Shown here piece by piece: positions 17,676-19,308 of a stretch of DNA of 22,169 bases. How positions within the stretch are numbered: position 1 is the stretch's first letter; the number at the start of each line of letters is the position of its first letter. The notes under the pieces are model-generated. The model was not told the DNA's origin. It made no database searches and was given only the letters and a program-made list of their open reading frames with translations. Made by a program: the position numbers and the translations under genes. The DNA comes from a virus, in the IMG/VR virus record IMGVR_UViG_3300033986_000022, positions 1-22,169 of that record. The stretch is one strand, 5' to 3'.

Positions 17676-18191
17676 TCAGCAATTAATTTTATCAAGGTCT
17701 GGTTGTACCCACTTCCTGCTAGCTAGGAAGTCACACAAATGCACGAACCACTCCAGTTCGTCGCTTGGTCTGGGTGTATCCCAGTTACCCATATGACTGG
17801 CTATGCACCTGCCAACTCTCCACCTGACGGAACCTTCTGGTGCATCACTACAGTACAGTTCCTGGGCAATCCTGCCATGTCCTGATACCGTGTGGTCTGC
17901 TCCTTCCAGCCCATGTTTGCAGGTGTCGTGTAGGATTAGTGCTGATATAGCAATATCCTCCTCCAGTGGTGTGAACCTCTCAAGGTCGAACAACTGTAAT
18001 GCAATGTACACTGCAACCCTGGTATGTCTTACTAACCCTCCCTCACCTTGTGCAAACTCTGGGTGGTACTTACCTGTGCTGCTGGCTGGTACCTTCCAAA
18101 AGTAGTCAGGTGCCTTCTGCAGGCACTCCTCTGTCCAGGCTCGTAGCTTGTCATTCTTAATCCACCTGGTACAACGTTTCAGCTCTTCCAT
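17676..18191 (-). CDS. HD-domain phosphohydrolase
   Basis: 171 residues from ATG 18191 after GGAGGTGAGGGT; it overlaps the preceding gene by 13 nt. The HD-superfamily residues are His56 (GLVRHTRVAVYIA), His88-Asp89 (LILHDTCKHG), His93, His133 (SHMGNW) and Asp154 (HLCDFLAS). Such proteins hydrolyse phosphate esters of nucleotides. Next to nrdD-nrdG, a role in nucleotide turnover (for example a nucleotidase or dNTPase) is likely, but the substrate cannot be read from sequence. An alternative is a cyclic-nucleotide phosphodiesterase acting against host signalling defences. The core is short, with no additional domain. Confidence 0.8.
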   Translation of the reverse strand: MEELKRCTRWIKNDKLRAWTEECLQKAPDYFWKVPASSTGKYHPEFAQGEGGLVRHTRVAVYIALQLFDLERFTPLEEDIAISALILHDTCKHGLEGADHTVSGHGRIAQELYCSDAPEGSVRWRVGRCIASHMGNWDTPRPSDELEWFVHLCDFLASRKWVQPDLDKINC

Positions 18192-18469
18192 ACACCCTCA
18201 CCTCCACAATTTGTACAACGCCACATGCCATTAGGGAACAAGTAGAATATCTGTTGTCCATCCTCATCCCTCTCCCTTTCGGTCTTACCACAGTTTGGAC
18301 AAGCCTTTGCTGATTCTGGTTCAGGTTCAGGTCGTGGCTGTCCTCTAACATCCCTGGTTATGATTATCCTACATAAGGCACTTACAGATATCCCCTGTTC
18401 CTCGGCTCGCTCCTCTAATGCCCTAATGGTATCCTCATCCAGGTACACGCTAATGCTCTTCTTAACCAA
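18179..18469 (-). CDS. Ribbon-helix-helix / zinc-ribbon DNA-binding protein
   Basis: 96 residues from TTG 18469, 9 nt after GGGGG; an upstream in-frame TTG at 18511 would add 14 basic residues but has no clear ribosome binding site. The N-terminus VKKSISVYLDEDTIRALEER (first residue TTG) with the following helix (ISVSALCRIIIT) is a CopG/Arc-type ribbon-helix-helix. A Pro/Glu linker leads to a zinc ribbon with CPNCG and CTNCGG. RHH proteins bind DNA as dimers and commonly repress nearby promoters. The gene begins about 100 bp from the iteron arrays, so these are candidate targets. The fusion with a zinc ribbon is uncommon. Confidence 0.78.
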   Translation of the reverse strand: MVKKSISVYLDEDTIRALEERAEEQGISVSALCRIIITRDVRGQPRPEPEPESAKACPNCGKTERERDEDGQQIFYLFPNGMWRCTNCGGEGVWKS

Positions 18470-18570: not shown

Positions 18571-18690
18571 ATTCACCTTGATTCACCTTGATTCACCTTG
18601 AAACACCTTGAAACAAGGTGAATTTCACCCACTTTTTCACCTTGATTCACCTTGATTCACCTTGAAACACCTTGAATCAAGGTGAATTTT
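18571..18690. repeat. Duplicated 10-bp-phased CACCTTG iteron arrays
   Basis: CACCTTG starts at 18574, 18584, 18594 and 18604, then the inverted form CAAGGTG at 18614. The same set recurs at 18638, 18648, 18658, 18668, with the inverted copy at 18678. Each is exactly 10 bp apart, one helical turn. The two 54-bp blocks (18572-18625 and 18636-18689) differ at one base. The last direct and the inverted copy can form a hairpin in each block. This pattern is typical of iterons or multimeric operator arrays. Confidence 0.85.
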
Positions 18691-18696
18691 TAACTG

Positions 18697-18776
18697 GGTT
18701 TATCAGTAAAACTGACAAATTTTAACTGTCTCAGCCACTGACAACACAATTTTCATGGTTTATCAGCTGATAAACC
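18697..18776. repeat. TTTRTCAG half-site cluster with perfect 20-bp palindrome
   Basis: TTTATCAG is at 18699-18706, and its inverted variants CTGACAAA at 18712-18719 and CTGACAAC at 18738-18745. The last two half-sites abut as GGTTTATCAGCTGATAAACC at 18757-18776, which is a perfect palindrome. Such mixed spacing of a dyad half-site suggests an operator bound by a dimeric protein. A further TTTATCAG is present at 15353, upstream of terS. Confidence 0.7.
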
Positions 18777-18806
18777 CCTAAAAAGTCGGCTTAAAACCAA
18801 AAATCT

Positions 18807-18890
18807 TCCTCCCCACCCATTTCTGATTTTGAAATTTTCACAAATGCCTTGTGACGAAAATATTTTTGGAAAGCATTTTAGTGGGGAGGA
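18807..18890. repeat. Inverted repeat with 10-bp perfect arms
   Basis: TCCTCCCCAC at 18807-18816 and GTGGGGAGGA at 18881-18890 are perfect complements with a 64-nt AT-rich interior. The interior contains a smaller hairpin, TCACAA-ATGCC-TTGTGA at 18839-18855. The arms are GC-rich in an otherwise AT-rich stretch. It lacks a T-tract right after the stem on either strand, so it is not a typical terminator. Confidence 0.6.
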
Positions 18891-18930
18891 TGAAATTTCA
18901 AATCAAACCGATATTATTACTGCTGATTTC

Positions 18931-18970
18931 AAGCAATTCAGTGATATTTGAAGCAATCCCAAGCAATCAC
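18931..18970. repeat. Three AAGCAAT repeats phased at 10 bp
   Basis: AAGCAAT begins at 18931, 18951 and 18961 on the plus strand, so spacing is 20 and 10 bp; the 18941 slot is degenerate. The last copy overlaps the stop of the tandem-HTH gene. The common 10-bp phase with the CACCTTG arrays suggests protein binding along one DNA face. Confidence 0.5.
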
Positions 18971-19308
18971 AAGAACGTGGGTTCAGGTACCTGCCACTCC
19001 TCACCCTCGAATGGTTCAGGTGCAACGTCGGTGTAGGTCTCTCCTCTCTTGATACGTACAATGGTGTTGACTGGTACTTTGAACCCCTCGGCAATAGTCT
19101 CAACTGTCATACCCTTGTTCAGTAACAGTTTGATACGTGCCACCTGCTCATAAGTCAACTTTCTTTCATTCCAAGTCTTGTTACGCTTGATGTCGCTAAT
19201 GGTGTTCGGCTTCACACCATACATAGCTGCAACTTCCTTGTTCTTATACCCCATAGCCAATAGCTTACGAATCTCCTGCACCTGGTTCCATGTCAGTGTG
19301 TTATTCAT
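18967..19308 (-). CDS. Tandem helix-turn-helix DNA-binding protein
   Basis: 113 residues from ATG 19308; an in-frame GTG at 19317 overlaps the GGAGGTG site and is less likely. The protein is two copies of about 45 residues. Copy one is LTWNQVQEIRKLLAMGYKNK…MYGVKPNTISDIKRNKTW. Copy two is LTYEQVARIKLLLNKGMTVE…GFKVPVNTIVRIKRGETY. Each has a helix-turn-helix with a recognition helix and basic end. An acidic tail follows (about 95-113). Such double HTH proteins can span two adjacent helical turns. The gene ends in the repeat-rich region, making it a candidate binder of the 10-bp iterons. It might be a transcription factor or an origin-binding protein. Confidence 0.75.
   Translation of the reverse strand: MNNTLTWNQVQEIRKLLAMGYKNKEVAAMYGVKPNTISDIKRNKTWNERKLTYEQVARIKLLLNKGMTVETIAEGFKVPVNTIVRIKRGETYTDVAPEPFEGEEWQVPEPTFL

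Follow-up and report, generated by a model that had tools for sequence, protein, structure and literature searches.

Arrays of 10-bp Near-Palindromic Boxes as a Candidate Multi-Box Operator for an RHH/Zinc-Ribbon Protein in a Phage Group

Gene Layout of the Window

The DNA analyzed here, referred to as the window, is a viral record of 22,169 bp in which every large gene lies on the minus strand. Its left side contains tail, portal and terminase genes, followed by NrdG/NrdD, an HD protein and a protein in which an RHH domain is joined to a zinc ribbon. A non-coding stretch of ~0.5 kb follows the RHH/zinc-ribbon gene and houses the repeat array that is the subject of this study (array 1, at site 1), ~100 bp upstream of the RHH start, and beyond this stretch are genes for a tandem helix-turn-helix (HTH) protein, a RuvC-like protein, a glyoxalase-like protein and DNA polymerase III alpha. 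The features are listed in Table 1. No Rfam family was found in the window, and an IS21-like transposon end was rejected as an explanation for the repeats, as there is no transposase beside them (the neighbors being HTH, RuvC-like, RHH, HD and NrdD).

Table 1. Coordinates of array 1 and neighboring features in the window.
Feature	Position	Strand	Description
CACCTTG, direct copies	18574, 18584, 18594, 18604; 18638, 18648, 18658, 18668	+	
CACCTTG, inverted copies	18614; 18678	-	Read as CAAGGTG on the plus strand
RHH (Arc/CopG-type) and zinc-ribbon protein	18179-18469	-	TTG start; candidate binder
Array 1, block 1	18572-18622		Five TTCA-N3-TGAA-type boxes, centers 18577, 18587, 18597, 18607, 18617 (fifth flipped, AGG)
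Degenerate box	18624-18634		TTCACCCACTT; center 18629, midway in the 24-bp gap; read from the sequence
Array 1, block 2	18636-18686		Five boxes, centers 18641, 18651, 18661, 18671, 18681 (fifth flipped, AGG)
Variable spacer V	18700-18785		Between the array and element C
Palindrome GGTTTATCAGCTGATAAACC	18757-18776		Perfect, 20 bp, within V
Element C	18786-18903		Non-coding, conserved; CCTCCC...GGGAGG arms and conserved AAAATATTTTTG core
Array B	18928-18967		Weak second 10-bp array; four units, ending at the stop codon of the HTH gene
Tandem helix-turn-helix protein	18967-19308	-	Rival candidate binder

Anatomy of the Array

The heptamer CACCTTG occurs ten times within 18574-18684, eight times on the plus strand and twice on the minus strand, which confirms the count given in a first-pass annotation of this DNA, as do its two 54-bp blocks (18572-18625 and 18636-18689), which are 98% identical and differ at one base. 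The window as a whole contains 15 matches, where 4.4 are expected and none of 100 shuffles reaches 15, and 10 of the 15 are packed into 111 bp. The longest chain at 10-bp steps formed by any 7-mer of the window is five, as in array 1, and in 30 Markov surrogates of the window such chains never exceeded two. The array is real and is not due to chance. Single boxes dispersed outside the arrays are at most slightly above expectation, and a many-site regulon is therefore unlikely.

The repeated unit is a near-palindrome, TTCA-N3-TGAA, with either CCT (TTCA-CCT-TGAA) or AGG at its center, and hence an "inverted" copy differs from a direct one only in its central triplet and stays in register. The steps between box centers are 10, 10, 10, 10, 24, 10, 10, 10 and 10 bp, inverted copies included, with the fifth box of each block being the one whose center is flipped. 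The gap between the blocks contains a degenerate box, and at the second site described below the gap in the relatives holds TTCACTGTGTT. The 10-bp steps within a block had been recorded previously, together with the claim that all of the sites face the same side of the helix, which is only roughly so since, by arithmetic at 10.5 bp per turn, each step drifts by ~17 degrees and the 24-bp gap rotates block 2 by ~100 degrees.

Relatives and a Second Site

Among 2.9 million viral contigs the RHH protein has two relatives, L007 (99%) and L008 (87%), a result with which an alignment-based repeat agreed, and apart from near-identical ones only two distinct RHH sequences were found. The array lies just upstream of the RHH gene in both, as it does in the window, with 10 boxes in L007 and 15 in L008 (4 + 6 + 5, with 14-bp gaps). 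Its absence from close relatives of the same gene order had been named beforehand as the result that would speak against it, and it is present in them. Further contigs were retrieved with an array pattern and a pattern for the core of element C; the collection scans used exact patterns, which diverged arrays would escape.

The contigs L015, L017 and L018 contain a second site (site 2), with 10-11 boxes, V and element C in inverted order, placed at the junction of the late and early genes, with a terminator-like sequence where the late genes end. The early genes include an amidoligase and a sigma factor, and also a SNF2-like helicase, a RecB-like and a Sak4-like protein, the last three being named from sequence. 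A TATAAT-type sequence in V, seen by eye, faces the early genes. There is no RHH gene adjoining the array at site 2, and so any action of the RHH protein there would be in trans. One contig with site 1 and one with site 2 came from each of the samples 33998 and 34520, and overlaps between contigs (L149-L153, 99.7% over 8 kb; L153-L150, 99.98% over 4 kb) connect site 1 to site 2 by way of the late arm, which measures ~24.8 kb by coordinates. Both sites on one molecule were not seen among the contigs, and it is the paired contigs of each sample and the overlap chain that point to two arrays per genome. A view of the single window, as one array with hairpins, misses this twin site.

The arrays contain 10, 15, 11, 10 and 10 boxes, and their spacing consists only of 10-bp steps and gaps of 14 or 24 bp, both of which equal 10n+4. 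The arms of the 56 boxes over five loci read T(47/56)CA...TGA(48/56); the 7-base core is invariant among these 56 by construction, as it was used to find them, but the gap box is the one lattice position without it. When read along the transcribed strand, the orientation of the boxes is <>>>><>>>> in the window, <>>>>>>>>>>>>>> in L008, >>>><>><>>> in L015 and ><<>>><>>> in both L017 and L018. Across the loci the register is kept, the box orientation varies, and at the sequence level the TCA/TGA arms are retained. This is most naturally read as recognition of each box by a two-fold symmetric protein.

Since orientation varies at constant register, conservation does not extend to the terminal hairpin. 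The direct/inverted pair can form the hairpin that was ascribed to it in the first-pass annotation (7 bp, -7.3 kcal/mol as RNA), but its position at the end of each block is found only in the window and L007, as elsewhere the pair is missing from some blocks or differently placed. The emphasis that had been put on the hairpins and on a layout of four direct copies and one inverted copy, repeated, is accordingly not upheld, neither being conserved in the relatives, and the hairpin was rejected as a functional feature. An intrinsic terminator or hairpin element was likewise rejected, as a conserved terminal pair with a T-run was not found.

All of these relatives are metagenomic fragments from one phage group, and exact-pattern scans of the collections did not reveal an array of this kind beside an RHH gene outside of it. 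Named phages and plasmids gave no BLAST match to the array region, to the RHH protein or to site 2. The named distant relatives by NrdD or TerL are the Oceanotoga phage, vir525 and two faecal scaffolds, and the stretches of them that were read do not contain the array. The large intergenic region of the Oceanotoga phage, vB_OteS-UFV02 (68% NrdD identity), contains an array of 11-bp repeats (L144, 44024-44070). Four copies of a generic pattern, CANNNTGANWCA, gave many matches in the viral and genome collections, mostly to unrelated arrays in bacterial genomes; these were first suspected to be IS21 ends, and clustering of the neighboring ORFs revealed no widely shared transposase-like family, on which the suspicion was provisionally set aside. 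Dispersed arrays of the same 10-bp unit, TTCACCTTGA, in two Verrucomicrobia MAGs (L052, L057, L068, L070, L081, L091, L096, L100, L107 and L108) are probably a coincidence. Two further contigs, L014 with three boxes and L020 with a chance match to element C within a gene, are unrelated.

Element C, the Spacer and Nearby Motifs

Element C is ~118 nt in length, its arms can pair to form a stem, and an inverted copy is present at site 2 in L015, L017 and L018. Site 1 in L149 and site 2 in L150/L151 are 78% identical over 360 bp, which comprise C with V and part of the array. The z scores of its predicted RNA fold are -3.1 in the window, -3.0 in L015, -2.2 in L008 and -1.1 in L018, and C is possibly a structured RNA that would end at GCCGATTTTTT at site 2, based on about four distinct sequences. 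The V of the window is unrelated to that of L008 at site 1 and to that of site 2, with the array and C being kept. The palindrome within V, which is absent from L008, is a candidate operator of an HTH protein. Three of the four units of array B contain a CAAGCAAT/GAAGCAAT core, a dyad of the TTG-N3-CAA type, and this array is more regular in L149 (3482-3527).

Candidate Binding Proteins

The RHH domain is matched by Pfam RHH_1 above the cutoff and by PHROG profiles of Arc-like repressors, and the AlphaFold model of the protein has two RHH helices and a C-terminal zinc ribbon. Its best match in the PDB is CopG, both by sequence (E 0.02) and by fold, each of them weak, with the RHH domains of PutA and Arc next in the fold search and none below E 0.001. 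The window and L008 have an identical predicted DNA-reading strand, KKSISVYL, and an identical box core, while V cannot be aligned between them. The HTH protein contains two HTH units per chain and has a weak match to Cbp1, a protein that binds CRISPR repeats (NF040595, E 1e-4, far below the cutoff). From the sequence we infer that the RHH or the HTH protein would be the binder, and since the two genes co-occur at every site 1 locus seen, their presence does not discriminate between them.

A Proposed Multi-Box Operator for the RHH Protein

We tentatively propose, with somewhat less than even confidence, that the array is a platform, or multi-box operator, to which the RHH/zinc-ribbon protein of the same phage would bind cooperatively. 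RHH dimers have two-fold symmetry, and one dimer would occupy the major groove at each box, with neighboring dimers packing into a filament over each block. The loaded array would repress or modulate the RHH gene at site 1, by autoregulation, and the early promoter region at site 2, and through the pair of arrays the phage might switch between its early arm and its late arm. Consistent with this are the 10-bp step in all of the arrays, which falls within the fixed 7-11-bp steps of tandem short boxes in RHH operators of the omega, MetJ and CopG type, the dyad arms, which suggest orientation-independent use, and the presence of the RHH gene at site 1. The first-pass annotation offered either a replication origin or a master operator, and of these the operator is favored, since array 1 is placed just upstream of the RHH gene and the late arm and there is a second copy, inverted, where the early arm begins, array 2 being flanked by the late terminator and the early arm. 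Its suggestion of multi-site protein-binding DNA with the neighboring RHH protein as a natural candidate binder has good indirect support from the symmetry of the boxes, the apparent tolerance of their orientation and the conservation of the array beside the RHH gene. Counting against an operator is the distance of several hundred bp between array 2 and the TATAAT-type sequence beside the first early gene, and a promoter scan of the window found no sigma-70-type promoter on the minus strand near site 1.

Array layouts of this type are known from plasmids and that of the phage differs as a variant. Tandem sites of comparable length are occupied by known RHH proteins, among them ParR, with 11-bp sites in plasmid R1 and 10-bp sites in pB171 (PMC9426499). 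The operators of MetJ and CopG are short symmetric boxes that are cooperatively filled by RHH dimers, but the MetJ boxes are 8 bp and few, whereas the phage has 10-15 boxes in two inverted arrays. Closer in layout is omega of plasmid pSM19035, an RHH protein with 7-bp sites in mixed orientation and several arrays per replicon that overlap the promoters of its own operons (PMC9499535), with dimers on contiguous short boxes as we propose for the phage. The heptads of omega are non-palindromic and omega has a ParA partner, delta, whereas the phage has 10-bp near-palindromic boxes, a zinc ribbon fused to the RHH domain and no ParA that was found.

The main rival is that the arrays are a pair of replication origins of the SPP1 type, or an origin and a fork-stalling site, where the boxes would be the target of an initiator that melts the AT-rich V/C, and this we consider unlikely. 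Phage SPP1 has two origins, oriL and oriR, ~13 kb apart, each with direct repeats and an AT-rich region and both bound by one protein (PMC6316719). The phage arrays similarly adjoin AT-richer DNA (V/C about 29-40% G+C versus ~45%) in two non-coding junctions, site 1 is near the DNA polymerase III alpha gene, and the early arm of the relative L152 contains a CHC2/Toprim primase with an MCM-like P-loop. However, GC skew has the same sign across both arrays, there is no DnaA-like box near site 1 and near site 2 there are only two weak AT-rich TTTTTCAAA matches, such that the origin half of the earlier reading is not supported by skew or by DnaA boxes. No known initiator family adjoins either array, and no homologues of the initiator gp38, helicase loader gp39 and helicase gp40 used by SPP1 were identified in the phage. 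Moreover, contiguous near-palindromic 10-bp boxes are generally better suited to RHH dimers than to the known iteron initiators.

Less probable again is the same regulatory function with the tandem-HTH protein as the binder, its two HTH units gripping adjacent boxes that are one helical turn apart. Two units per chain do suit direct repeats spaced by 10 bp, the tandem-HTH protein Cbp1 binds CRISPR repeats, and the gene adjoins C and the array in all site 1 loci, but single boxes flip without a change of register, which would break a directional contact with two boxes, and the distinct degenerate array B lies closer to the HTH gene.

To return to the RHH operator, an extension of it, to which we assign a lower probability still, is that the two inverted arrays and the one RHH/zinc-ribbon protein bound to them, with a structured and possibly transcribed C, form a paired boundary that would mark the ends of the early and late arms and act in trans on both, by coordinated switching or by bridging of the two sites. 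To our knowledge, such a layout is undescribed for tailed phages.

It is very improbable that the array is a parC-like centromere for the partition of an extrachromosomal prophage. In R1, ten of the 11-bp repeats flank a promoter (PMC9426499), and the phage resembles both R1 and pB171 in having an RHH gene beside blocks of repeats of this length. In parC, however, the repeats are directional, and the actin-like ParM that defines the system was, like ParA and TubZ, unseen in Pfam scans of the site 1 neighbors and a sample of early genes from the incomplete genome; the two inverted arrays also sit at arm junctions. Nor do we give much credence to a functionless minisatellite, since although box number varies among the phage arrays and 10-bp units with the same arms form simple arrays in some bacterial genomes, including those of the Verrucomicrobia MAGs, the core is kept at every lattice position bar the gap box, at two sites and in relatives with a wholly changed spacer, and both sites have a matching C partner.

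If the RHH operator is correct, arrays in the style of plasmid omega and ParR would extend to the control of a tailed phage that carries genes for anaerobic ribonucleotide reductase. Its near-palindromic boxes, which occur naturally in sets of 10, 11 and 15 and with natural flips, would then be a compact case for the study of RHH cooperativity and orientation tolerance.

Other Features of the Early Arm

A Type II hammerhead ribozyme (Rfam RF02276, E about 6e-8) is located directly after the early-arm amidoligase gene in L015 (1819-1884) and L018 (7938-8005). Two regions of L150 (14013-14213 and 15780-15971) are in direct repeat (77%) ahead of early genes, and the first contains 10-bp-spaced GTTTGAAAAA repeats and a TATAAT-type sequence.
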